Position numbers and translations under genes: made by a program | Notes under the pieces: generated by a model | What the model was told of the DNA's origin: nothing | What the model saw: only the letters and a program-made list of their open reading frames with translations | The model's database searches: none | Shown: positions 3,187 through 39,719 of the stretch, piece by piece | Position numbering within the stretch: position 1 is the stretch's first letter | Layout: the number at the start of each line of letters is the position of its first letter | Assembly: GCA_029572815.1 (NCBI GenBank) | Contig: JAKPUQ010000112.1 | Location: 1-64,000, forward strand | DNA from: Bacillota bacterium | GTDB taxonomy: Bacteria; Bacillota; Clostridia; Oscillospirales; Ruminococcaceae | Length of the DNA: 64,000 nucleotides | Direction: 5' to 3'

Positions 3187-3296
3187 ATAATTAAAATAAA
3201 AAAATAATTCTGAGGCCGTTACGGTTACGGTATAAGTACAGAATAGATATTATGAAAGCCGATGACGCGTCGGACGCTTTGAAAGAAGGTGAGATC

Positions 3297-3863
3297 ATGA
3301 CACAGAAAGAATACCGTAAGGCTGCGGCTCTGTCCGAGGAGAACGCTCAGCGCTCCCTGTTCGATGAATATTTCAATTACGTTTACACTATCGTTTTCAG
3401 CCGCCTGCGCAGCTGCGCAAGCCGCGAGGATATAGAGGAATGTGTGGGGGACGTCTTTGCGGACGTATATATGCAGTTTGATGAACGTAAGGCATTCAAT
3501 GGAGATCCTACGGGCTTTGTGGGGACTGTTGCAAGGCGCAAGGCTGCCGATATGTACAACAGGCTCACAAAGAAAAGGCAGGGAATGGTGTCCATCGACG
3601 ATGAGGAAGCCGCTGAGATAGAGGCTCCCGACGATACCGAAGATACCGTTGAGAAAAAAGAGCTGAGAGGCTCGCTGATAAAATGTGTGGAGCAGCTTGG
3701 TGAACCCGATTCAACTATAATTATACAGAAATACTTTTTCATGCGCAGCTCCGCCGAGATATCAAAGCTTGTGTCACTGACTCCCGAAGCTGTCCGCGTC
3801 CGATGCAGCCGTGCGCTGAAAAAGCTCAGGGAAACGCTCACCGCTATGAACATTTCACTTTAA
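3297..3863 (+). CDS. ECF-type RNA polymerase sigma factor (cluster 1)
   Basis: A 188-residue sigma-70 family protein of ECF size. The ATG at 3297 is used because GAAGGTGAG precedes it, while an upstream in-frame ATG at 3252 has no ribosome site. Region 2 is seen in LFDEYFNYVYTIVFSRL and EDIEECVGDVFADVY. Region 4 is the C-terminal helix-turn-helix (SSAEISKLVSLTPEAVRVRC then SRALKKLRE). A 13-nt gap separates it from the downstream membrane protein, the usual arrangement of an ECF sigma and its anti-sigma. This is the only one of the three sigma genes here that reads through without a frameshift. Its regulon cannot be told from the sequence. Confidence 0.88.
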   Translation: MTQKEYRKAAALSEENAQRSLFDEYFNYVYTIVFSRLRSCASREDIEECVGDVFADVYMQFDERKAFNGDPTGFVGTVARRKAADMYNRLTKKRQGMVSIDDEEAAEIEAPDDTEDTVEKKELRGSLIKCVEQLGEPDSTIIIQKYFFMRSSAEISKLVSLTPEAVRVRCSRALKKLRETLTAMNISL

Positions 3864-3876
3864 AGGAGGTACAGTT

Positions 3877-5874
3877 ATGAACGATAAGGAATTGAACCTT
3901 GACGTGCTTGAAAACGCCGACGAAGATACAATAAAGAAAATTGCGGCGGACTGTCCTGCTTCCGATGAAGAGAAGGAGAGAACGTTTGCAATGAGCAGAA
4001 AGATATACAAAGAAAGAACCAGGGAAAGCGAATATAAAAATGATATGGAGGTCTCGGGCGTTGACGTCTATAAGAGACCCGTATGGCTCAAGTTTGCAGC
4101 AGCGGCAGCTGCCGTTGCCATCGCAGCAGGTGCAATAACAGGAGGCGGTATACTCCTGAAAAGGCACCGCACTCAGCCCAAGGTGGACAGCTCGGAAATA
4201 GAAGAACGGGCAATGTCTCCCTTCGGCGACCTCAGCGGCTGCCGTGTAAGGCTCACCAATGCCGCCATAGCTCCTGCGGTATTTGAACCAAATGAGGAGA
4301 ACAGGACAGCTCTCCTCACCGCTCTCAATGAGGGCGACTGGAACAAGATATCGCCCGATACTCCTCTCCCCGACGGAGAAACTGAGCTCATTTACCTCAT
4401 GAACGGCACCAAGCCCTGCCGGCTCACCCTCTACGGCGACCACACCATCTGTTACGAGGATAACTCCTCCAAGGAGAGGTATGAGATAGACATTGATACC
4501 GAAAATGCAGTCCGCGAGGCTATAAAGTATGCCCCCGAAGCAGGCGATGAGCTCATCTATCTCGACGTCAATGATTTAAACAATATCAACTCAGTATGGC
4601 TTACCACATCCTCGCTCAATCCCGATTATGCAGACGTTTATATTCCTCCTGCCGGTAAGATCTTCACAGTTCCTGCAAAGAACTGCCGGTTCTGTATAAA
4701 TGAAAAATGGGATGCCGAGGCAGCTTTCAGCTGTGAGGGCGCTCCCGAAGCGATGAGCATATTCACGGAGCTGGAATGGAAAGAGGCAGACTGCGAGCCT
4801 AATTTTGTTGATGATATCTGCTTCTTTTCTTTCAGATGCTCTAACAATGACGGCCTCTTTAATTACTCGCTCAATGTATACTCCAATGGATATGCTTATG
4901 CTGAATACAGCGATAAATCAACAGGAGAGGCAGGATCGTGCATATATATGCTTAAATCTCAGGACCGCGGAAACCTGCAGGCCGCTTTCGTAGGTGCAGC
5001 TTTTGCACAGTTGGATAATATGGATCCGGCTGAAGAAATAAAGCATTGCAAACCTTTGCTTATGCAGATAAGCCGCACCGACGACACATCAAAGCTTTTA
5101 AATCTGTATGATAATGCCATGAATACTGCTGCTGCTGATGCTTTGAAGGCTGCTTCATGGGAAGCTCTTCCCGACGATGCCGAGTGCGGTGAGGAAGTCT
5201 GCCGTTTGAGAATCAACGAAAACCTGTATTTGCAGACATACTATTTTTACGACAATAATGTTGCAGTTATCGGATACGAAAAAAAGAAATACAGCGTTTC
5301 TCCCGAGCTGACAGACACAATAAAGTCTCTCTCGGACTATGCATGGAAAAGAGCTGAACCTCACAGTCAGTTGGAGAACGAAGCTCCTGACACTCTTGAA
5401 CGCGGAAAGGAAGCCTATCAGAACGCCCTCGAAACAAATGGAAAGTTCAACGGCGGAGCACCCGATCTGCTGGATATTGACACAAGCTCTGAGGGATACC
5501 GTGACTTTGGTGACGGATTCAGCGGATACCTTGTTAGAAATGTCAGCAGCATAAACGAGATAAACGAAATGTACCATCAGACCTTCAGCGACCGCTACCC
5601 CGAGAACAGCTTTATCGACGGAAGCCCTTATTTTGAAAGGGACGGCAAGGTATACTGGTATGCCGGAGGAAAGGGAAGCCATATATACTACCTTGGCACA
5701 GAGGTCCTTGGAATACTCCGCAGAACTGACGACGAGATATTCTTCGCCGTTGAAAACAGCTACGGCGGCGGTAATGTGGATGAAACTCCCCCCTGGACAG
5801 AACAGACAGAATTCTCCGTTGTGGTACAGCCCGACGGCTCATGGAAAGTGGGCAAGCTCACTGTTCCCGATTGA
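3877..5874 (+). CDS. membrane-anchored putative anti-sigma / sensor protein
   Basis: A 665-residue protein co-transcribed with the sigma gene, start backed by AAAGGAGG 7 nt upstream. The first 70 residues are charged and presumably cytoplasmic. One transmembrane helix follows at about 71-94 (Ala/Val/Ile-rich, ending before KRHRTQ), leaving about 570 residues outside. The topology and operon position fit an anti-sigma factor with an extracellular sensor, but I see no classical zinc anti-sigma motif. The extracellular part contains repeated acidic, Tyr-rich segments and two heme-free, Cys-poor modules that I cannot assign. Unlike the proteins at 7444 and 16501 it has no dockerin, EF-hand loops or internal start, so it is the simpler form of the same operon type. 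Confidence 0.6.
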   Translation: MNDKELNLDVLENADEDTIKKIAADCPASDEEKERTFAMSRKIYKERTRESEYKNDMEVSGVDVYKRPVWLKFAAAAAAVAIAAGAITGGGILLKRHRTQPKVDSSEIEERAMSPFGDLSGCRVRLTNAAIAPAVFEPNEENRTALLTALNEGDWNKISPDTPLPDGETELIYLMNGTKPCRLTLYGDHTICYEDNSSKERYEIDIDTENAVREAIKYAPEAGDELIYLDVNDLNNINSVWLTTSSLNPDYADVYIPPAGKIFTVPAKNCRFCINEKWDAEAAFSCEGAPEAMSIFTELEWKEADCEPNFVDDICFFSFRCSNNDGLFNYSLNVYSNGYAYAEYSDKSTGEAGSCIYMLKSQDRGNLQAAFVGAAFAQLDNMDPAEEIKHCKPLLMQISRTDDTSKLLNLYDNAMNTAAADALKAASWEALPDDAECGEEVCRLRINENLYLQTYYFYDNNVAVIGYEKKKYSVSPELTDTIKSLSDYAWKRAEPHSQLENEAPDTLERGKEAYQNALETNGKFNGGAPDLLDIDTSSEGYRDFGDGFSGYLVRNVSSINEINEMYHQTFSDRYPENSFIDGSPYFERDGKVYWYAGGKGSHIYYLGTEVLGILRRTDDEIFFAVENSYGGGNVDETPPWTEQTEFSVVVQPDGSWKVGKLTVPD

Positions 5875-6736: not shown

Positions 6737-6845
6737 AATTACATCTCCTTATGTTAGTTTGAGATAACAAAATGATTATATCATGTTTTCCCTCACGCTG
6801 CAAGGATTATTGCACTGAGTTTACAAGGCGGATATGTATTTCCGC

Positions 6846-6875
6846 TTGGAAATAAAGTTGAAAATATGATATAAT
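6846..6875 (+). promoter_or_regulatory. promoter of the second sigma operon
   Basis: TTGGAA (6846-6851), 18-bp spacer, TATAAT (6870-6875). Transcription would start near 6882 and give a leader of about 100 nt before the GTG at 6983. Confidence 0.55.
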
Positions 6876-6908
6876 CTTATGGTATAGCTGTAGAGCAGTG
6901 ATTTGTTC

Positions 6909-6960
6909 ACAGAATGTTTACAATTATTTCTGCACATCGGCACTGACTTTTCAGTTAATC
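6909..6960 (+). promoter_or_regulatory. conserved upstream element, copy 1
   Basis: ACAGAATGTTTACAATT (6909-6925), 6 bp, GCACAT (6932-6937), 17 bp, TTAATC (6955-6960). The same parts at identical spacing occur at 55632-55683 before another dockerin gene. It could be a regulator site or an alternative-sigma promoter. Confidence 0.45.
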
Positions 6961-6982
6961 ATTAGTGAAGGGAGGTTTGAAT

Positions 6983-7440
6983 GTGTCAGTTGATATCAAT
7001 GACCAATACGACAAAATATTCCGCTATTGCTACTACAAGATCCATGATCGAGATATTGCAGAAGACCTGACACAGGAGACCTTCCTTCGGTTCCTCGAAA
7101 GTCCGCATTATCGCGATATGGGCAAGGAACTGCGATACCTATACACCATCGCAGCCAACCTATGCAGGGACGCTTTTCATCGCAGACAGACCGAGGAGCT
7201 TGACGAAAACCTCGCTGATGACAAGGATTACGAGGACTTTATCCTCACCAATGTTGCCCTTGGAAGTGCAATAAAAAACTTTCCGAGGAAGACAAGGAGA
7301 TCGTGATCCTTCGATACATAAACGATGTTCCCATAGGTGTTCTTGGAGACCTTTTCGGTATGTCAAGGTTCAGAATGAGCAGGCGTATCAGAAGTATCCT
7401 CCAGCACCTCAAAAAAGACCTTGATCGAGAGGAGGGCTGA
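6983..7440 (+). CDS. ECF-type sigma factor (cluster 2), frameshifted
   Basis: The first frame encodes region 2 (ITDQYDKIF-like start, then DIAEDLTQETFLRFLE and LRYLYTIAANLCRDAF) but stops at 7306. Region 4 continues in the -1 frame to the TGA at 7438 (LSEEDKEIVILRY, then IGVLGDLFGMSRFRMSRRIR). The break is at an A6 run followed by C (7273-7279). In the first frame this reads A AAA AAC, a textbook -1 slippery heptamer, and a -1 slip there joins the halves exactly. A missing A in the run would have the same effect. GTG at 6983 is chosen because GGAGG lies 7 nt upstream. The longer frame from 6965 would translate the ribosome site itself. The stop lies 3 nt before the TTG of the dockerin fusion, so the two are coupled. 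Confidence 0.8.
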
Positions 7441-7443
7441 AGC

Positions 7444-9528
7444 TTGAATAAAAAAATGAAACAGGATATCAGGGATTCCTTCAATTTCCCTGATGCAAAG
7501 CACAAGTATGAATTTCTTATGCAGGCTGAGGTCGCTTCTGCTCAGGACAAAAAGCGGAAAATCCCCGTACCCTTGGTGTTCAGAGTTACTGCCGCTGCTG
7601 CGGCGGCTGCGATCGCCATAGGACTGTGGACCAACCTCAGAACAAGACCCGACCCGGGCGGGAAGGACTTCCGCGGCGGCTCTGTTATAGTGACCACCGC
7701 TGAAAATACCGTATCTGCCGTGACCACAACAGCTGACGGAAGCTCCGCAAAGCCCGTCACCACCGTTACTGCACATGATAATGAAACGGCTGTGACTACA
7801 TTTACTGCTGCCACAAACGCTCAGGGAGCAGTAATAACAAGCGCTTTTCCTGCACTGGGAGCGCACACGCTGACTTCCGCAGTTCGTCCGTCGGGCACAG
7901 GCAGGACCGCTGCCGCAGTCCCGGGAAATAACACAACTACTACAACTGTTAATAATGAAATCGAAAGGAGTTTTGAAATGAAAAAATTAGCTGCATTTTT
8001 ATCGGCGTTTACACTTTCAGTCTCAGCTATCGCCACTGATTCACATGCTGCCTATTCGGTTGCAAAGGACAGATATCCCCAGGAAAAGCAGGGAATAAAC
8101 AATATCGATAAGTATGACATGGCTATAGATCTCAATCAGGACGGCAAATTTGATCTGATGGACGGCTGTATACTTTACAGATATATGATTCTTGAGCAGA
8201 CCGATTTCGATGATGTCCCCGAGGAGTTCAGACCGTGGAGCATCAATAATGTTTCTGATGAGATCAACGAATATATCGCTCAGAATGCCGATTATGACAA
8301 AAACGGCGCTATTGACTATAATGATGTGGACATACTGATATGCTATTACTTTATCCATAACAAGGTATCCTATAAGGATATACTCCCAACTACCTATGAT
8401 CCCTCATACAGCGGTTCTATTCATGGCTATCATCTTGATTCATGCAGTGTTGATGCAAGCTTTACCGAGAAGGTAAATAACGAGATCAGTCAGCTGCTTC
8501 TGACCTATTATCTCATTGACGAGCTGATAGATGACGGTCTGCTTGATCTTGATGTTGATGAAAATGGAAGAGTTGACATTATGGACTACACCTATATCTC
8601 AATAGACGGTCAGAATTATCATGATACATATACATTCCCCGTAGAGGACGGAATAGGTATCAGTGAGCGCCCCTATTATCTGGAACCGCCCGCAAACATC
8701 CAGGCCAACTGCGATAACGTTTATCTTGCAAAGCCCTTGATGTACCTGAAAAAATCAAACAGGAACAGCGAAATAGCTCACTTTTTAACGGCGCTTGATG
8801 AGTATTTTGCATCTCATCTGACTCTTATTCCCGAGTATTTCGATGACGATTACTATGAAAGTATTATTGAAGGCAGCGATACATATTATCTCGGCAGAAA
8901 TCTCAGAAACGGAGCAATGCGAATGGACATTATTCCTTCAGGCGAAGACAGCAGCTTCTTTAATATCGACAACGACGTATTCGCGGAAGGCTTTACAAAG
9001 TATTACAATAACGTGCTCAGCGGTAAGCAGCCCGCTCCTGATGTAAATAAGGACGGCGTGGTGAACTCCGTGGATTCAGACATCGCTTTTGAATACATTG
9101 GTGAGATACTTGGCGGACATACCGACGCTCCCGCAAAAATGTCACAGACCGAGTGGTCGGCACTGAAAAATGATTTTGATTTGAATCAGAATGGTACCAG
9201 CGGTGATATTTATGATCTTTTCTTCATATCGGCTTATGCTGCGATCAATGAAGAAGCTCCCGATTCCGCCAACACAGTGGCCTCATACAGATACAACAGC
9301 GGTCTCAGTATGCTCAGCACAGCAGAGATAGACCGCAGCGGCGATGCAAACTGCGACGGCGATACAGACCTTGCAGACGCTATCTTCATTATGCAGTCCA
9401 TGGCTAACCCCGACAAGTATCAGCTCTCGCAGAGAGGCAGATTCAATGCCGATATCAGCGAGCCCGGTCACGGCGTTACCGCAGACGATGCACTTGAGAT
9501 ACAGAACCGTCTCTTACATAACAATTGA
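7444..9528 (+). CDS. anti-sigma-like membrane segment fused to an EF-hand/dockerin protein, dual start
   Basis: A 694-residue frame starting at TTG 7444 behind GAGGAGG. Residues 1-42 are charged and cytoplasmic, a TM helix spans about 43-62, and a Thr/Val/Ala linker runs to about 175. In the same frame at 7964-7970 lies AAAGGAG, then 7 nt, then ATG 7978 (Met179), which opens a standard signal peptide (MKKLAAFLSAFTLSVSAIA). After it come at least five EF-hand-like loops (for example DLNQDGKFD, DYDKNGAID, DVDENGRVD, DVNKDGVVN) and a C-terminal type I dockerin (about 635-694, first loop DANCDGDTD). The gene can therefore make a membrane-held sigma regulator with an extracellular dockerin and a free secreted dockerin protein. 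The paralogue at 16501 has the same design. I recognise no enzymatic domain. Confidence 0.8.
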   Translation: MNKKMKQDIRDSFNFPDAKHKYEFLMQAEVASAQDKKRKIPVPLVFRVTAAAAAAAIAIGLWTNLRTRPDPGGKDFRGGSVIVTTAENTVSAVTTTADGSSAKPVTTVTAHDNETAVTTFTAATNAQGAVITSAFPALGAHTLTSAVRPSGTGRTAAAVPGNNTTTTTVNNEIERSFEMKKLAAFLSAFTLSVSAIATDSHAAYSVAKDRYPQEKQGINNIDKYDMAIDLNQDGKFDLMDGCILYRYMILEQTDFDDVPEEFRPWSINNVSDEINEYIAQNADYDKNGAIDYNDVDILICYYFIHNKVSYKDILPTTYDPSYSGSIHGYHLDSCSVDASFTEKVNNEISQLLLTYYLIDELIDDGLLDLDVDENGRVDIMDYTYISIDGQNYHDTYTFPVEDGIGISERPYYLEPPANIQANCDNVYLAKPLMYLKKSNRNSEIAHFLTALDEYFASHLTLIPEYFDDDYYESIIEGSDTYYLGRNLRNGAMRMDIIPSGEDSSFFNIDNDVFAEGFTKYYNNVLSGKQPAPDVNKDGVVNSVDSDIAFEYIGEILGGHTDAPAKMSQTEWSALKNDFDLNQNGTSGDIYDLFFISAYAAINEEAPDSANTVASYRYNSGLSMLSTAEIDRSGDANCDGDTDLADAIFIMQSMANPDKYQLSQRGRFNADISEPGHGVTADDALEIQNRLLHNN
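7964..7980 (+). promoter_or_regulatory. internal ribosome binding site and start within the fusion gene
   Basis: AAAGGAG (7964-7970), 7-nt spacing, ATG (7978-7980), in frame with the long reading frame and directly before a signal peptide. The paralogue has the identical motif and spacing at 16997-17013. Confidence 0.7.
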
Positions 9529-9554
9529 GGAAACATGATTTTAAATAGATAACG

Positions 9555-9590
9555 AAAAAGGCTTCCCGACAGCTCTCGGGGAGCCTTTTT
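9555..9590 (+). terminator. terminator after the cluster 2 fusion gene
   Basis: Stem AAAAAGGCTTCCC / GGGGAGCCTTTTT (one G-T pair) ending in a five-T run. Confidence 0.88.
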
Positions 9591-9708
9591 CATGTCCGTA
9601 GCCCTGAAAAGAGGGAAGCGCTTTGTGAAATACATACAATCGAACTGGCGCGAATAAGGTGTGCTGATGTGAAAAGTCACGATATTTTATAAAACTTGCA
9701 ATATTGTA

Positions 9709-9741
9709 TTGACAAGTAATATTATACGACGTATAATATTA
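9709..9741 (+). promoter_or_regulatory. padR promoter with overlapping palindromic operator
   Basis: TTGACA (9709-9714), 17-bp spacer, TATAAT (9732-9737). A perfect dyad TAATATTATAC-GAC-GTATAATATTA covers 9717-9741, filling the spacer and the -10. Its position and size fit an autorepressor site for the PadR protein encoded next. Confidence 0.8.
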
Positions 9742-9800
9742 TCAGAAACCAGATATTACAGTTCGCAAAATACTATATGGTTTCAGAAAGGAGCTACACT

Positions 9801-10133
9801 ATGGGATTTTCTATAAACGCAGGTCTGCTGGACGCCATGGTGCTTTCCATCGTTCAGAATAATGACACCTACGGATATGAGATCACTCAGTATTTGCGTA
9901 AGGCTGTGGATATTTCCGAATCCACCCTCTACCCCGTGCTGAGACGATTGCAGAAGGGCGAAATGCTCGAGACCTATGACAAGGAATTTATGGGCAGGAA
10001 CCGAAGGTATTACCGTATAACCACCAAGGGTAACGATTCCCTTGAGGAGTACAGAGAAGAGTGGCGCAGCCATAAGAAAAAAATCGACAGTATTTTATTG
10101 AATGAGGGAGCTGGATACAATGAACAAACTTGA
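9801..10133 (+). CDS. PadR-family transcriptional repressor
   Basis: A 110-residue winged-helix regulator of the PadR family. The fold is visible in GLLDAMVLSIVQNNDTYGYEI, ISESTLYPVLRRLQKGEMLE and GRNRRYYRITTKG, the usual PadR wing. ATG 9801 is chosen because AAAGGAG precedes it. It overlaps the next gene by 14 bp, so padR and the DUF1700 gene are translated together. A perfect palindrome sits on its own promoter. PadR/DUF1700/DUF4097 operons are common in Firmicutes and usually respond to envelope stress or membrane-active compounds. That role here is inferred from family. Confidence 0.92.
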   Translation: MGFSINAGLLDAMVLSIVQNNDTYGYEITQYLRKAVDISESTLYPVLRRLQKGEMLETYDKEFMGRNRRYYRITTKGNDSLEEYREEWRSHKKKIDSILLNEGAGYNEQT

Positions 10134-10779
10134 ATTCCTTACAAGGCTGAGAAATAACCTCGAAAGAGGCGGTCTGCCTTCAGATGATATCAATGATGCG
10201 CTTTCGTATTATGAGGAGGTATTCCTCGACGCAGGCTTCGGAAAGGAAGAGGAGACTGCCGCTTCCATGGGTTCTCCCGAGGACGTGGCTGTGAACATAC
10301 TCCGTGAGAGCGGTATCCATGTGGGCGGAGCTCCCATTATGCCTCCCCAGAGGACAGGTGCTCCTCAGGGACAGCAGCAGGGACCCATGATGGGCGGATA
10401 TGTTCCTCCTAAAAAGAAGGCTTCCGGCGGCACCATCGCTCTGGGCATAATACTTGGCATAGTTACATTCCCCATCTGGTTCCCCATCGTATGTGTGGTA
10501 GTTTCACTGTTATTCGCACTCATCGTCGTTCTCATCTCACTTGTTATCGCATTCTTCGCAGCAGCTATCGGACTTCTTTTCGGAGGTGTGGTAGCACTCA
10601 CAGAGTTCCCCGCAGTAGGAATGATGTTCCTTGGCGCAGGACTCATACTCACAGGTATCGCAATACTGGTCTGCAAGCCTGCATTCAGCGCAGCTATCCC
10701 TGCTATCGGCAGAGGTATAAAGGGCTTTTGCGGCTGGATAGTTGGTCTTTTCAAAAAAGGAGGAAAAGAAAATGTCTGA
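10120..10779 (+). CDS. DUF1700 family membrane protein
   Basis: A 219-residue protein. The N-terminal 75 residues (EFLTRLRNNLERGGLPSDDI, then YYEEVFLDAGFGKEEETAA and MGSPEDVA) match the DUF1700 cytoplasmic helical region. After a Pro/Gly/Gln-rich stretch, four hydrophobic segments follow between about 105 and 205. ATG 10120 is used because GAGGGAG lies upstream; the frame remains open from 10102. It overlaps padR upstream and the DUF4097 gene downstream (10772), so all three form one tightly coupled operon. Its biochemical function is not known to me; it may form a membrane sensor with the DUF4097 protein. Confidence 0.88.
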   Translation: MNKLEFLTRLRNNLERGGLPSDDINDALSYYEEVFLDAGFGKEEETAASMGSPEDVAVNILRESGIHVGGAPIMPPQRTGAPQGQQQGPMMGGYVPPKKKASGGTIALGIILGIVTFPIWFPIVCVVVSLLFALIVVLISLVIAFFAAAIGLLFGGVVALTEFPAVGMMFLGAGLILTGIAILVCKPAFSAAIPAIGRGIKGFCGWIVGLFKKGGKENV

Positions 10780-11650
10780 AAACAACATCAATGTACAGGA
10801 GCAGCAGACTGCTCCTGCTAAGGAGAAAAAGGGAGGCGGAGCTCTCTGGGCAGCTGTTATCGCAATAGCTCTCGGACTTATCCTTCTCATCACAGGATAT
10901 ATTCTTTACATACACAGCGACAAGGACAAGTATTATAAAGTCAAGGACTACAATGAGGTCTTTGACGGCGCAAAGGTGACAGAGCTTGAGCTGAGTCTGG
11001 ACTGGGGCGACCTCATTATCGAAAAGAGCAGCGACGATAGTATCCATGTGGACGCTACCGATGTTTCCGAGCACTTTGAGGCAAAGGTATCGGGAAGCAA
11101 GTTCACCATGGGCTACGATTCAAAGAAGGAACGTGCTATCCCCTTTGGACTTGTTTTACGCCCCATGAATTATAACCCGGTCGTTAAGCTCATGCTCCCC
11201 GATAATGAATATGACCGCTTTGTACTTGGCATGGGTGCAGGAGATGCCAAAATAAACTCTGTAAAATGTTCATTCCTGGACGTTGACTGCGGAGCAGGTG
11301 ATGTGAACTTCAGCGGCATCGAATGCAGCAAGGTTGAGATAGACTGCGGCGCAGGCGACCTGAATATAACAGGAATAGACTGCTCAGGCATTATGGACAT
11401 AGACGGCGGTGCAGGCGATATTACCATCAGGGACGCTGTTGCAGGCGGTATGGATCTCGATCAGGGCGTAGGAGACTTCGACTATACAGGCACCATGAAC
11501 GGCAATGTTGATGCTGACGGCGGCGTGGGCGACATTACCTTCCGTCTTACAAATCCTGCTTCTGATTTCTACAAGGGAAGCGGAAAGTACAGTCTCACTA
11601 TCGACAGCGGCGTAGGCTCTGAAAACGTTATCTATAACTCAGGACAGTGA
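10772..11650 (+). CDS. DUF4097 family beta-repeat membrane protein
   Basis: A 292-residue protein with one TM helix near residues 23-45 and an extracellular repetitive beta region. Short repeats containing D-C-G-A-G-D (DVDCGAGDVN, EIDCGAGDLN, DIDGGAGDIT, DLDQGVGDFD) recur every 18-20 residues from about 165 to 260, as in the right-handed beta-solenoid of DUF4097 (LiaG-like) proteins. The start ATG 10772 has AGGAGG upstream and overlaps the DUF1700 stop. It is the third gene of the PadR operon. Family members are linked to cell-envelope stress responses. No catalytic residues are evident. Confidence 0.87.
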   Translation: MSENNINVQEQQTAPAKEKKGGGALWAAVIAIALGLILLITGYILYIHSDKDKYYKVKDYNEVFDGAKVTELELSLDWGDLIIEKSSDDSIHVDATDVSEHFEAKVSGSKFTMGYDSKKERAIPFGLVLRPMNYNPVVKLMLPDNEYDRFVLGMGAGDAKINSVKCSFLDVDCGAGDVNFSGIECSKVEIDCGAGDLNITGIDCSGIMDIDGGAGDITIRDAVAGGMDLDQGVGDFDYTGTMNGNVDADGGVGDITFRLTNPASDFYKGSGKYSLTIDSGVGSENVIYNSGQ

Positions 11651-15712: not shown

Positions 15713-15958
15713 AAAGCGTTTTAATAGCAAGATGCGCGGAGAGAAAGTTCTGTTTTCGAGACTGTATCGTGAAAAGGTGGCGGCGTTTCCTACAGTGGTC
15801 CCGGACATCTGTAACATGAGGCATGGTTGGATAATATCTGCCCATGCTATGCACTACGCACTGCCTGCTGAAAAATTTTTCAGAATTTACTAAGATAATC
15901 GAAAAAAACTTCCGTCTAATATATTGAAAGGCAAAATTTCCGGAAAGGAGCCTTGTCT
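15713..15958 (+). other. non-coding stretch before the third sigma gene
   Basis: No credible gene. It contains a short palindrome TGAAAAATTTTTCA near 15869-15882 and an A-rich tract, then AAAGGAG before the ATG at 15959. I could not identify a convincing -35/-10 pair; CGTCTAATAT near 15913 may be part of a non-housekeeping promoter. Confidence 0.35.
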
Positions 15959-16514
15959 ATGGATAATGGTTCAAGTAGCTACGGCCGTTATCTTGCCGGT
16001 GATGACTCGGCTATGGGTGATCTCGTCCGAGAATACAAGGACGGTCTTACTCTGTTTCTCAATAGTTTTACCAATGATCTTTTTTGATGCGGAAGAGCTC
16101 ATGGAAGAGACCTTCCTCAGACTGGCGTACAAAAAACCTAAATACTCAGGAAAAAGCTCCTTCAGGACGTGGCTTTACGCTATCGCGAGAAATCTGGCGA
16201 TAGACTATCTGAGGAAAAGAAAACGTGCGGCGGCTGTATCATCTGAGGAGATGTATGATGTACCATCAGAGCAGAACATCGAGGAGGATTACTTGCTGGA
16301 GGAACGAAAGGCGATCATTCATAAGCTGATGCGGAAGCTGAAGGACGAATACCGACAGGTGATATGTCTGATATACATCGAGGGCTTTTCAAATTCAGAA
16401 ACTGCACAGATAATGCACAAGAATAACCGGCAGATAACTAATCTGCTGTATCAGGCTAAAAAAGCTCTGAGGTCAGAGCTGGAAAAGGAGGGAATAACGT
16501 ATGCGGGATTATGA
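15959..16514 (+). CDS. ECF-type sigma factor (cluster 3), frameshifted
   Basis: ATG 15959 has AAAGGAG 8 nt upstream. The first frame encodes MDNGSSSYGRYLAGDD then DGLTLFLNSFTNDLF, the start of region 2, and stops at TGA 16085. The +1 frame continues without a gap as FDAEELMEETFLRLAYKKP, FRTWLYAIARNLAIDYLRKR and a C-terminal region 4 helix-turn-helix (GFSNSETAQIMHKNNRQITN). The break is a T6 run (16080-16085). One T fewer restores the frame, and a +1 slip on TTT before TGA would also do so. The gene overlaps the dockerin fusion by 14 bp. Together with cluster 2 it forms a second copy of the sigma/dockerin-fusion operon. Confidence 0.8.
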
Positions 16515-18780
16515 CGAAGTTACTCAGACCGTACTGAGGCGTCGGGACGAACTGATCGCAAGGGACAGAAGACGTGGGCTCATCCTGAAAAGAAGCGGTG
16601 TTGCAGCACTGTCAGTATGTGCTGCGGCGGTGGTCGGTATCGGAGTTTTCAGAATGAACAGCAAGGATATCGAACTTCCCGATGACGGCGGTATCATCGT
16701 TGCGGAAACTACTGCTCCACCCGTAAGTACGTACGTTACTGCCTCCGCAGTCACCACCTACGGGACCGCTGCTGCAGGTACGACGGTCACATCGGTGAAG
16801 GATACGGTAACATCTGCACCCGTATCAGTCAAAGCGGCAGCAACAACAGCTGCTGCAAACACAGTCGGTACAGCTATCCATAGTACGAAATCACAAAACG
16901 GAACTGCAGCGGCTGCGGTATCGTCGTCTATCCCTCGGACGACTGCTGCTGCTCCTGCTGTGGTCACAACCGTTACAACGACCATGATAAATCCCGAAAG
17001 GAGTGTTGACATGAAAAGGCTTATGCCGTTTACGGCTTCGCTTGTTATGATGGCTAATGCGGCTGCCCCCTCCGGTGCGGCGGCTGCTGAGACCTATAAT
17101 GATTATACTATAATGACGGAAATGGATAACGGGGATCTTGATATAGATATTGATAAAGACGGTGAGTTCACTGTAAAGGACTGCTTCTATCTCATGGCAT
17201 TCGACTACAGACATGAGCCGGACGAAGCTGTCAGGAACAATATCCTCGAAATAGCCGATTATGACAGAGACGGCAAGGTGGGGCACAACGATGCCGATGT
17301 GCTGCTGAAGTATTTTATCGGCGAGAGAAAAGTGAAGAAGGAACACCTCTTTACAGATTATTATGCGGACTTCGATATAGTTTACAATGAGAACGGCAAG
17401 CCCATATACGGACCTGCTGACCCGGAGCTGAAGGAAAAGATAGATGCCCTTGAGCTGGAATATGACAAGTCAAAGCATACTTATGAAGAGCTTGAGGAGA
17501 TCGAGGCTGAGTACAATGAACTCATGGAGCAGTACAATGAGCAGATGAATGATCCGGTCATCGTGGGTTATGAGCAGGTGGAGAGCAGATTTTCCGACAT
17601 TTTTGTCTCCAATCTCAGATCCTATATGGGCGATGTTTTCGGCGGCTCCGGTCTCTTCCGCAACTGCCTTGAGGACGGCGACATGGACATGGACATCGAC
17701 GGCGACGGCAGCTTCACATTCGATGATCTGGCGAGATATCACCTTTATGAGCATCAGAGATACAACACTAACCGTTACAGATCAGATGATCCTTTTTTTG
17801 ACTTCAGTGCCTTTACAGATCAGTCAGAGGATGAACCGCTTGAAGAAAAAATACTGCAAAACGTTACTTCTCTCACTGAGGCACAGTGGGACAAGTGCGC
17901 TGAAAATTACAGCTTGTTTACTGAAACTCTTGGCATAAATAATACAGTAGGGATCGCTATGTATTATCTCTTTGAGAGAGATGGTGAGCCTGATGCGAAA
18001 TATTTTGACAACGAGCATTATGACGCGCTGTTCCCGCTGGGCGAAAGGTTCCGCTTCGGAGAGCGTGTAAGAATGAGCTACAGCCAGATATACCAGGTGG
18101 ATGAAAGGCTGACATACGATAATACCAATATCCACTGTACTATGAGCGAGTATCTCGATGATATAGCAGCAGGCAGAAAAGAGCCTGTTGACATAAACGA
18201 AGACGGCTCCATTGATTACAAGGATGTTCTCATCTCGGATATGTTTCTCTATGATTACAAGAATAAGATACCGCATGAAGAGTCATGTATTCCTTCCGAT
18301 GTCTGGACCCGTTTTATGTATGAACTTGACCTTAACGAGAACGGCATATACGGAGACCTCAATGATGTTACCATGTATCAGTTTTCCGTGTACGTCTACA
18401 GAGAGTCCGTGCTGGGCGAAGAGGCCCCTCTCTTCGGCGAGGACAAGGACTATTATGATTATATAGCGGATTACCGCATGGAGCTCGCAGAGCAGAAGGC
18501 GGGCCGCAAGGTCGATGTGCAGCCCGCTCCCGTGATGGTCGAGAGCAACGTAAGCAAGGCTTTACAGGACACTACAATAGAGCGCAGCGGCGACTCAAAC
18601 TGCGACGGCAATACAGATCTTGCAGACGCTATCTTCATCATGCAGAGCATTGCTAATCCAGATAAGTACAGGCTGGGGACCGCAGGCAGGTTCAACGGCG
18701 ACGTATGCGAAACAGGCGGCGGTATTACCGCAAATGACGCTCTGACCATTCAGAACGGCCTCCTCACAGGCAAATACTGA
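16501..18780 (+). CDS. anti-sigma-like membrane segment fused to an EF-hand/dockerin protein, dual start (paralogue)
   Basis: A 759-residue frame starting at ATG 16501 behind GGAGGG, overlapping the sigma gene. Residues 1-30 are cytoplasmic, a TM helix lies at about 31-51, and a Thr/Val/Ala linker extends to about 168. An internal AAAGGAG-7 nt-ATG at 16997-17013 (Met171) opens a signal peptide (MKRLMPFTASLVMMANAAAP). Then come EF-hand-like loops (DIDKDGEFT, DYDRDGKVG, DIDGDGSFT, DINEDGSID, DLNENGIYG) and a C-terminal dockerin (first loop DSNCDGNTD, about 700-759). The layout matches the protein at 7444 throughout. The peptide around the internal start is ERS..MK in both, because GAA AGG AGT encodes the ribosome site. 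No enzyme domain is recognised. Confidence 0.8.
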   Translation: MRDYDEVTQTVLRRRDELIARDRRRGLILKRSGVAALSVCAAAVVGIGVFRMNSKDIELPDDGGIIVAETTAPPVSTYVTASAVTTYGTAAAGTTVTSVKDTVTSAPVSVKAAATTAAANTVGTAIHSTKSQNGTAAAAVSSSIPRTTAAAPAVVTTVTTTMINPERSVDMKRLMPFTASLVMMANAAAPSGAAAAETYNDYTIMTEMDNGDLDIDIDKDGEFTVKDCFYLMAFDYRHEPDEAVRNNILEIADYDRDGKVGHNDADVLLKYFIGERKVKKEHLFTDYYADFDIVYNENGKPIYGPADPELKEKIDALELEYDKSKHTYEELEEIEAEYNELMEQYNEQMNDPVIVGYEQVESRFSDIFVSNLRSYMGDVFGGSGLFRNCLEDGDMDMDIDGDGSFTFDDLARYHLYEHQRYNTNRYRSDDPFFDFSAFTDQSEDEPLEEKILQNVTSLTEAQWDKCAENYSLFTETLGINNTVGIAMYYLFERDGEPDAKYFDNEHYDALFPLGERFRFGERVRMSYSQIYQVDERLTYDNTNIHCTMSEYLDDIAAGRKEPVDINEDGSIDYKDVLISDMFLYDYKNKIPHEESCIPSDVWTRFMYELDLNENGIYGDLNDVTMYQFSVYVYRESVLGEEAPLFGEDKDYYDYIADYRMELAEQKAGRKVDVQPAPVMVESNVSKALQDTTIERSGDSNCDGNTDLADAIFIMQSIANPDKYRLGTAGRFNGDVCETGGGITANDALTIQNGLLTGKY
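16997..17013 (+). promoter_or_regulatory. internal ribosome binding site and start within the paralogous fusion gene
   Basis: AAAGGAG (16997-17003), 7-nt spacing, ATG (17011-17013), in frame, followed by a signal peptide; identical layout to 7964-7980. Confidence 0.7.
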
Positions 18781-36765: not shown

Positions 36766-39719
36766 TCAGTCCAGTGATTCGACCAGGTGGAGGAGATGCT
36801 CCTGAATGCGGAGAGCGTCTCCTGAGGTTATGCCCTTTGTGGACTTGTCAACATCTGCATTTGCCTTGCCCTGAGGAGTAAGGTGCTTGGGCGCTGTGCC
36901 GCTGAGACCGTACTTGTCGGGGTTAGCCAGTGACTGCATAATGAGGATAGCGTCTGCAAGCTCAACTGTATCATCGCAGTTTGCGTCGCCTGACTTTGTG
37001 ACAGCAATATCAGTTGTGGTAGTGGTCTTGCCGGGGTCAGGTGTTGTTGTGGTAGTTGTAGTGGTAGTAGGAGGTGTTGTGGTAGTTGTGGTTGTGGTCG
37101 GCAGAGGTCCGGGAACATCCCATGCGTTCTCGGCAAAGTTGATGTTCCATGCGAAGGAAGCCTGCCAGTCTACAGCTGAATCGTTTGTGCTCCATGAGCT
37201 TACGGAATCGGCGTAGCATTTCTGAGCAGGTACCTTTCCGCGCTCCATTCCCAGACTCTTTACATAGTCATCCTGAATTCCTGAGGCGGGACCGCTGACC
37301 ATTACTCCTGAGGGAGCCATGGGGAAATCGTGGTCCAGCTCATATATCCAGTATCTGTTTGAGGGATTATTTGAGTGGTATGTACCGTAGCCTGTGACAT
37401 AGGATATGCCGAGACCGTTTCTTCCGAAAATGTAGTCCATAGCCTGAGTCATGCCGTTGAGATACTTCATATCTGCGTTTGATGCTTCATAAGCATAAGC
37501 CATGATCATGGCGTTATTAGTTATACAAGCATTTGAACCGGCCTCATATCCTGCATGAGTATCATCACCGGGCATACCGATACGCTCCATGACTTCGGCT
37601 CCTTTGAATGGTATACCCATTCCGTTTTTAGAGCTGTTTTCAATTTCAAGCATAGATTCTGCGGCTTGTATGATATTATACTCGATGATTTCCTTGTCCC
37701 TCGCAGCTGTCTTATCGCTGAGGTAAAGCGAAAGTGTTCCCAGAGTAGTAGTATCACTGTTATTGAAGGCTGAGTAGGTAACACCATCTAATTGGGACAG
37801 CTCTATGTCAAACGCCTTTGTGACTCCAGCTCTGCTGTATTTGTTTTCATAGTTCTTCAGCTCGTCATAGTACTCCTCAGCACCTGTGGTTGCGAAGAGC
37901 TCGCAGGCAGCCCAGTATGCTTCGTCCTTGACGCAGCTGTCCTCGTATATGCCTGTGCCCACATATGAGCCTATGGGAGCAAACTGAGGATCCACCCAAT
38001 AATGTCCGCTGCTGACACCGCTGACATCCCATTTTTCCTTGTATGCCATTACAGCCTTCCAGGAATCCTCTGCGTGTTTGAGGCACTCCTTTGCGAAATC
38101 ATCGTCTATGCCCTCCCAGAGACGTGCAGCCTGGGCTGCGCAGGCTATCATATTGAATGTAGCTGCATACGTAGGAGGTCTTACGATACGGACAGGCATA
38201 TATTCTTCGTCATATATGTAGGTTTTTCCTGCAAAACTGTTGGGCCTGTAGTCGCCTGCCTGGTGGTATACGAAGTTTGCGTGATCCTTGCCCCATACTG
38301 AGTCCTTGTCAGCATCAACGATCATCTTGAACATCCACTCAAGCTCATATCTTGCTTCTCTGAGGGACTCCTCGGAGGCATCGCCCCTTGACTTGTCCAT
38401 TTCGTACATATTCTGGAGGAGCCATACAGCGTTAGCGCCTGTGATGACGTTCTTTGTGCTGTCGGAGCCTGTGTACCAGCCGCCTGTTACGTCGATAGAA
38501 TCCCTCTTATCGCCGTCAAATTCTCTGCCGTAGGTTTTTATCCATTCTGACTGGATATATGCGGTATCGTTCTTGTGCATTGCAGAATGAGCAAGCTTGG
38601 ACTTCTTGTCCTTTGGGTTTGATGAGGTTATCTTTGATTCCTCAATATCCTCGTCGGAACGGTTCTGATAGTAGTAGTTCAGGGTGTCTTTGAGGATACC
38701 ACTGTAAACATCATTACCTATCTTGAACTCATGGCTGATGTATTTCTTATAGGTCTCGCCTGTGCGGGAATTTGTGTATATGTTGTCCTTGTCGTCCACC
38801 TCAATTGTGTATGTACCGGGCTCGGAAACAGTTGAGAAATCGAGTATCTGGCAGTAATCGCCTGCTGTTTCGTCATATCCTATGGGAGTACCCTTGCCTG
38901 TGTATACGGTCTCGCCGTTTTTCTTGACTGTGAAGCTTACGGGTTCCTTTATCTCCTTGCTTGTGGCGTATGTAGCCTTTTTGTCATTGGCTGTGTAATA
39001 GCCCATCTGGTTCACTCTTACATCGCTTCTGGGGGTAATGATTCCCATTTCATTTGTGGGATCCCAGAGGCAGGGGGGGTGGACTGTGCGTCCTTGTATT
39101 CCTCGCCGCAGGTCTCGCACTCAAGTGTGAGATTATCGAACTTCAGCACTGTTCCCTCGGGGAAGCAGTCCATAGGCTGGTAAGAGCCTGCGCCGCCGTA
39201 CTGGAATGACCATTCAGCCACTTCGATAGTTTTTGTGGCAGTAAATTCACTGTCGAAGCTGTTCTTGCCTTGAATTATTTTGACGTTGTCCCAGCCCTGA
39301 TCCCAGTTGCTGGCATTGTTCTGCCATACGCCTACGCCGTTATAGTCAGTACCTGCGATATGAGTGTGCAGCTCTCCTTCGGCAGAGGCTTCTAACTCCC
39401 AGTGTACCTTGTACTTGTGCCCCTGCTCAATATGGAGATTTCTGTGGCGTATACCCAGATCCCATCTTGAGTCGCCGCCGCGCTGATATCCGCCGGGATT
39501 GACGATAGTGATATTAAAGCTGCCGTCCTTGGTGTCGAAGCGCTGCTCTGCGGGGCGAATGGAATATGCTGTCCATGGCAGCACTATCCCGTCGTTGAAG
39601 TCATTCTGTCCGAGACAATCAGCATTAGCTGTAAATGGTGCAAATGCGGCAGTGCTTACCGCAGCTATTGAAGCTGCCATTAGTCTCTGAATGATTTTTT
39701 TGGGTGACCTGTGTTTCAT
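36766..39719 (-). CDS. GH9-family dockerin glycoside hydrolase with CBM4-like module, frameshifted
   Basis: Begins at ATG 39719 (GGGAGGG upstream) with a signal peptide. A CBM4-like carbohydrate-binding module follows at about 35-205 (HIEQGHKYKVHWELEASAEG, then EWSFQYGGAGSY). The frame breaks in a G7 run at 39073-39079, and the other frame carries the Ig-like domain (DVRVNQMGYY), the GH9 catalytic domain, a Pro/Thr linker and a type I dockerin (about the last 75 residues, first loop DANCDDTVE). Joined, the protein is about 980 residues. Catalytic motifs are altered: GGWYTGSDS instead of GGWYDAGDH, NPSNR instead of PHHR, and TNDSAVDW instead of TNEVxIxW, so the usual acid Glu is Asp. It should be a cellulosomal subunit, but its activity is doubtful or specialised. 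Confidence 0.85.

Follow-up and report, generated by a model that had tools for sequence, protein, structure and literature searches.

The window analyzed here, a 64,000-nucleotide stretch of a Bacillota bacterium of the Ruminococcaceae (contig JAKPUQ010000112.1), carries on its plus strand, at 7444–9528, a gene in which an anti-sigma-like, predicted membrane protein continues in frame into a predicted secreted protein that ends in a dockerin and has a translation start of its own. This fused dual-start layout is confirmed, and it recurs beyond chance. We consider it probable that the gene represents a family, in plant-fiber-digesting Ruminococcus, of sigma/anti-sigma-like systems that bear on their outer part a dockerin, the module through which the enzymes attach to the fiber-degrading complex, and that are made both as a membrane form and, in most members, as a free secreted form. 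From sequence comparison, both starts look functional, because the internal Shine–Dalgarno (SD) sequence is kept, the upstream half of the gene is under selection, and its N-terminus co-diverges with the neighboring sigma factor. The first-pass annotation of the window had mentioned neither the frameshift in that sigma gene, nor the paralogs and the genus-wide family, nor the lineages that have lost the SD, nor the exchange of ectodomain cassettes.

A fused gene and its genus-wide family

The frame had been described as open from 7444 to 9528 through an in-frame AAAGGAG-7-ATG, and this is correct: it contains no stop and encodes 694 amino acids (aa) from a TTG. Its parts and surroundings are given below, where L070 is a syntenic ortholog assigned to Ruminococcus flavefaciens ND2009 and ECF stands for extracytoplasmic function.

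6846–6875, +: vegetative-type promoter-like site TTGGAA-18-TATAAT before the sigma gene, with TG 5′ of the second hexamer (consensus scan only)
6965–7440, +: ECF sigma factor gene, frame broken near 7277 (Pfam run on two pieces)
7429–7436, +: SD-like GAGGAGGG of the first start, 7 nt 5′ of the TTG, within the end of the sigma gene
7444–9528, +: fused open reading frame (ORF), 694 aa, TTG start; dockerin-bearing, anti-sigma-like predicted membrane protein
7444–7569, +: cytoplasmic N-terminus, residues 1–42, proposed sigma-binding segment
7570–7629, +: transmembrane helix TM1, about residues 43–62, by hydropathy
7630–7963, +: Thr/Ala/Ser/Val-rich linker, rapidly evolving
7964–7970, +: internal SD AAAGGAG, spacer of 7 to the ATG at 7978, same frame
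7978–9528, +: second (internal) start, predicted free secreted ectodomain plus dockerin, 516-aa precursor
7978–8049, +: signal peptide (judged from sequence) of the internally initiated product, cleavage position approximate
8008–9310, +: cassette exchanged relative to L070, edges approximate, conserved DNA on either side
8050–9324, +: ectodomain core, mostly helical in the model, with EF-hand-like loops
9325–9525, +: C-terminal dockerin of R. flavefaciens group 1 type
9572–9594, +: terminator-like hairpin with T-rich tail, 3′ of the stop (consensus scan)

The signal peptide, EF-hand-like loops, and dockerin noted earlier beyond the internal start fared unequally. A signal-like segment is present, and a Pfam scan of the 694-aa protein finds Dockerin_1 (E 2.3e-10) in three stretches, but the EF-hand match falls below the Pfam cut-off. 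Residues 1–42 have no Pfam or NCBIfam match above cut-off. RsgI_N, the RsgI N-terminal domain (Pfam PF12791), is absent from the Pfam matches of the full protein and of eight N-terminal parts.

In sequence and in predicted fold, the terminal dockerin matches the R. flavefaciens group 1 dockerins (PDB 5M2O, 5M2S). Its residues at the cohesin-contact positions are L39, I43, Q47, and Q83 (Doc1a numbering), those at 39 and 43 being conservative changes. Three of these positions are also kept across the family, with Q47 in 89/91 members, Q83 in 86/91, and V, I, or L at 43 in 87/91.

The window's own genome holds five further fused copies, one of them in the window itself at 16501–18780, and one stand-alone secreted copy. 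With a family profile (A1) built from seven ectodomain cores, we sampled 100 genomes of the genus, the window's own included, and found the family in 46 (E ≤ 1e-15). In a sample of the taxonomic family (197 genomes from 125 genera), matches at E ≤ 1e-12 occurred only in the window's own genome. Carriers among the matches listed include R. flavefaciens FD-1, ND2009, MA2007, XPD3002, Y1, and SAb67, metagenome-assembled genomes, Ruminococcus sp., and one record titled Clostridiales bacterium Firm_05. Removal of duplicates reduced 140 ORF matches to 115; the loci, picked by hand from matches with E ≤ 1e-15, cover close to the whole family, though completeness is not assured. They comprise 95 fused ORFs with a signal-peptide segment, 18 stand-alone ORFs, the locus L116, and one dockerin-only fragment. 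One fused member, L046, starts at a contig end and was left out of linker and transmembrane statistics, giving 94 rows.

The fused members are consistently paired with a sigma gene. Using a detection model made from five sigma genes of the window's own genome, we found one adjoining 94 of the 95 (the remaining one starts at a contig end) and none adjoining any of the 18 stand-alone members. The frame is kept through the linker in all 95, with linkers of 91–235 aa in the 94 measured, and in 92 of 94 the hydrophobicity of TM1 exceeds that of the internal signal segment. By hydropathy and adjacency, the predicted topology is that of RsgI-type proteins, with a single transmembrane segment and an outer module beside a sigma gene. 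A group-1-like dockerin is present in 91 of the 95 fused and 17 of the 18 stand-alone members; among the other four fused genes, two have another dockerin-like pair, one has its dockerin out of frame, and one has none. The comparison across Ruminococcus genomes that the first-pass annotation had proposed shows that fusions of a dockerin to an anti-sigma-like protein recur. Two trivial explanations were rejected: a stop codon missed through sequencing error, since the frame is retained in 95 members, and stand-alone members being fusions with an overlooked chassis, since 18 of 18 have no upstream sigma gene. For 14 stand-alone members, no chassis-type upstream ORF was seen among ORFs viewed by their last 70 residues.

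Some loci vary this architecture. L116 (genome G054, contig C44) is fused but lacks a signal peptide and a recognized dockerin, and by sequence would be an anchored EF-hand-type sensor only. At L014:1675–3311 (genome G000, contig C161), sigma and N-terminus resemble those of the window locus and the ectodomain is unrelated, with no signal peptide or dockerin by eye, so the chassis appears to carry other sensors too. Judged by sequence and position, 3252–3863 and 3877–5874 (both +) in the window itself form a third likely sigma/membrane-partner pair, whose partner protein combines a TM-like segment with a large dockerin-free ectodomain and has no Pfam or NCBIfam match.

An ECF sigma gene directly upstream, as had been claimed, is real, but its frame is broken in the window. 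Searched apart, its pieces match Sigma70_r2 (1.9e-11; within 6965–7306) and Sigma70_r4 (9.2e-8; in another frame, up to 7440). They match ECF models of Pfam and NCBIfam; for region 2, the best 25 of 65 families include no SigI model, and neither do the 18 families listed for region 4. The position directly before the fused ORF is that expected of an ECF sigma/anti-sigma pair. In L070 the sigma gene is intact. The second copy in the window shares the disruption:

15924–16514, +: ECF sigma gene preceding the second copy, with an out-of-frame 5′ part
16501–18780, +: second gene with this architecture (759 aa); its internal AAAGGAG lies at 16997–17003 and its ATG at 17011

The window sigma frameshift is probably a draft error, because both window sigma genes and the dockerins of two paralogs on contig C104 are out of frame. 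A dockerin-bearing protein at 36766–39719 (−), GH9-like by eye, is apparently split across two overlapping frames, and together with the sigma genes and the paralogous dockerins it suggests several indel errors in this draft.

Selection on the two starts

The internal start stands out from every other candidate in the same genes. An SD duplex of −8 kcal/mol or lower precedes it in 81 of 95 fused and 18 of 18 stand-alone members; of the 1451 other ATGs that are in frame within the fused ORFs, only 29 have one. The start codon, placed by hand in 12 members, is ATG in 93 fused genes, GTG in one, and GTC in one. At the junction the peptide varies (E-R-S, E-G-S, H-R-R, E-G-G, K-E-D), and the DNA is mostly AGGAG-like. 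Codon choice there is strongly skewed: Ser is AGY in 68/69 cases, Gly is GGG in 22/27, and Arg is AGG in 64/81, compared with 38%, 3.8%, and 20% in the rest of these genes. The SD lies in codon registers 1, 0, and 2 in 75, 2, and 2 members, respectively. An amino acid motif E-R/G-S as the conserved item is ruled out by this codon choice together with the SDs in other registers.

Shuffling of synonymous codons weakened the mean SD from −11.0 to −5.3, with controls at −2.3 and −2.6. In 62 of 95 genes, at most 5% of shuffles were as strong as the real SD, compared with 10 of 190 controls. The start region is also less structured than its own shuffles (p 5e-8), which is not true of control Met codons. 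A chance SD is ruled out by the control Met codons and the shuffles. At 50% identity the 95 fused genes fall into 49 clusters, and these rows are therefore not independent. Taken together, the comparisons indicate that the internal SD and start codon are under selection independent of the encoded protein.

The history of the SD was followed on a quick, midpoint-rooted tree of 114 ectodomains. The stand-alone state requires two changes. The SD-less state, assigned to 15 rows judged weak or lost by eye, requires eight, seven of them imposed by starred branches. One clade (support 84) consists of 38 fused rows and contains no stand-alone gene; 36 of these rows retain the SD. In the fused clade nearest the window ectodomain (L032, L034, L036, L088, L096), the SD looks degraded, with ATG and hydrophobic segment kept, and these genes offer a natural contrast for judging what the predicted free form does.

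Selection is also visible in the upstream half. With the codons that overlap the sigma gene removed, nonsynonymous divergence (dN) of the N-terminus and TM1 is below synonymous divergence (dS) in 13 of 15 pairs (0.010/0.52, 0.017/0.60, and 0.032/0.55 in three of them); of the remaining two pairs, one has a single change and one has none. With the overlap included (16 pairs, 15 of them fused), N-terminus dN is below dS in 12 of the 15 fused pairs. Despite its fast evolution, the linker shows lower dN than dS in 11 of the 15 fused pairs, and protein identity of the signal peptide is 0.92–1.00 in 11 of 15.

Sigma and N-terminus distances are correlated across 92 loci, the window (broken sigma), L093, and L046 having been left out. 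Spearman correlation is 0.60 with the overlap removed, a value reached in 0 of 199 permutations, and 0.73 with the overlapping codons still in. Sigma and ectodomain distances correlate weakly (0.10), a value that saturated ectodomain distances may depress.

Exchange of ectodomain cassettes

The window and L070 share their chassis and differ in their sensor. In 100-base bins, identity is 91–99% over 6800–8000, falls to 35–57% over 8000–9300, and returns to 82–100% over 9300–10800. At the sequence level, the ectodomain of this pair is replaced between signal peptide and dockerin, and the internal SD sits on the conserved chassis side. Within the exchanged cassette, two weakly supported dockerin-like modules are possible, at about 8116–8364 and 9022–9246.

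Exchange is not confined to this pair. Among 44 locus pairs with similar DNA at the sigma end, N-terminus, and linker, 11 have dissimilar ectodomains (matched fraction <0.35; one borderline at 0.32) and 33 do not. The 11 span four or five chassis lineages. Two pairs, window/L070 and L077/L082, have no ectodomain DNA match at all; in pairs with residual similarity, fast divergence may have occurred instead of exchange. The reverse case was not seen in this comparison.

Proposed mechanism, alternatives, and known systems

We infer the following mechanism, its sigma binding, topology, protein levels, signal, and signal release included. A single operon, from the promoter-like site to the terminator-like hairpin, would yield the sigma factor, a membrane anti-sigma, and a free secreted sensor. 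Initiation at 7444 would give a single-pass membrane protein that captures the partner sigma through residues 1–42 and keeps it membrane-bound. TM1 would be the anchor, with a Thr/Ala-rich stalk and an EF-hand-rich ectodomain outside, and the terminal dockerin of this anchored form could plug into scaffoldin cohesins. The strong internal start at 7978 would produce this ectodomain again, now behind a signal peptide of its own, to be freed as a dockerin protein. When scaffoldin, substrate, or another ligand of the ectodomain engages the anchored ectodomain or dockerin, the anti-sigma would be lost and the sigma released. The free form may fill the same cohesins and thereby damp the signal, or it may put the ectodomain into the cellulosome. 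The first-pass annotation had proposed a cohesin-binding membrane anti-sigma with a soluble dockerin competitor. The pairing of a membrane protein with a sigma gene, the co-divergence of its N-terminus, the cohesin-type dockerin, and the two selected starts support this in part; kinship with RsgI is not supported, the RsgI N-terminal domain having gone undetected in the Pfam scans.

A more specific version is tentative. Here the anchored dockerin would report vacant scaffoldin cohesins, the internal-start copy would compete with it, and recombination would swap sensor cassettes on a fixed sigma chassis. If this is true, Ruminococcus monitors how its cellulosome stands by means of a set of dockerin-carrying sigma/anti-sigma receptors, and sensor specificity evolves apart from the regulon.

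Several observations weigh against the two-product sigma/anti-sigma reading. The main structural problem is that the long form contains two successive N-in signals, the weaker second of which must cross uninserted or be cleaved; of 94 signal segments, only 33 contain a strict A-x-A motif. No match to a known anti-sigma domain was detected for the N-terminus, its dN between the window and L070 (0.034) is not below dS (0.017; about five changes), and the window locus, its own sigma being broken, does not enter the sigma distance test. SD energy is above −8 in 14 of 95 fused members and above −6 in 9 of 95. At least seven of the changes among the 15 SDs judged weak or lost are forced by the tree, and five of these 15 rows are the window copy's closest relatives by ectodomain. 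L116 has neither signal peptide nor dockerin, and L087 neither SD nor dockerin. Finally, the SD variant matches that of the nearest neighbor by ectodomain in 70 of 76 cases and by N-terminus in 63 of 76. This rejects the notion that the SD variant follows the chassis; because it tracks the ectodomain at least as well as the N-terminus, the SD may partly travel with cassettes.

That last pattern is what one would expect if secreted dockerin genes or cassettes had repeatedly been captured behind an anti-sigma chassis, the internal start being a leftover, unselected once fused. Stand-alone relatives do exist, and ectodomains are exchanged between chassis. However, the fused-only clade retains its SD almost throughout, synonymous codons are constrained at the SD, and the SD of the window/L070 pair belongs to the conserved chassis and not to the exchanged part, so that we regard such a relic as unlikely. 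We also doubt, somewhat more strongly, that the anchored full-length form alone is functional, the SD-like stretch and hydrophobic segment serving, for example, as a pause site or a second membrane-associated segment. The hydrophobic segment does persist in SD-less lineages, and L116 is anchored without an internal signal peptide, but conservation extends to the start codon, local structure is reduced, and the tree includes, at a cost of two changes, stand-alone genes for secreted proteins that possess SD, ATG, and signal segment. Least credible, indeed very improbable, is a free dockerin protein as the principal product, with only a passive role for the outer part fused into the long form: the window copy has a strong internal SD and ATG against a TTG at its first start, but every fused member keeps its frame through the linker, and L116 keeps a direct fusion without a signal peptide.

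If the two-product sigma/anti-sigma reading is right, carrier genomes gain one to several candidate receptors able, in principle, to join the cellulosome physically, and regulation by cellulosome assembly becomes testable with named genes. A single gene would then yield a membrane product and a secreted one, both under selection. The family also shows sensor cassettes exchanged on a fixed sigma chassis. The first-pass annotation knew of no dockerin-bearing anti-sigma, and the literature searched likewise contained no report of one. R. flavefaciens FD-1 has 225 dockerin modules, some in proteins of unknown function, and the accessible portion of that study points to no sigma or membrane regulator among its dockerin proteins (PMC2721979).

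It is useful to compare the family with systems that share some of its features. Group 1 dockerins agree with those of the family in sequence, predicted fold, and most cohesin contact positions; those named in the available part of PMC5429695 reside on enzymes and the scaffoldin ScaC, whereas the family's reside on a predicted membrane regulator. Bacterial and phage genes with internal starts (Spa33 and the endolysins CTP1L and LysIME-EF1) likewise obtain an extra product from a second translation start, but as far as excerpts of those reports go, none makes both a membrane anti-sigma and a secreted version of that protein's outer part. ECF sigma/anti-sigma pairs share adjacent or overlapping genes, a short N-terminus, one transmembrane segment, and an outer part. 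They differ in that the family's N-terminus falls in no Pfam or NCBIfam anti-sigma family found, its ectodomain cassette is exchanged, and it has an internal secreted start. RsgI differs in that the family has no RsgI_N match and its window sigma pieces match ECF models. According to part of a 2024 genome survey, a dedicated RsgI suite is used only by Acetivibrio-type cellulosome bacteria (PMC11557425). Still, in excerpts of PMC3413522 and PMC11557425, the RsgI proteins of Acetivibrio (Clostridium) thermocellum resemble the family in being membrane anti-sigmas with a fiber-linked outer module, multiple paralogs in each genome, and a sigma partner gene. The outer modules named there are carbohydrate-binding, PA14-like, or glycoside hydrolase modules, whereas those of the family combine an EF-hand ectodomain with a dockerin.
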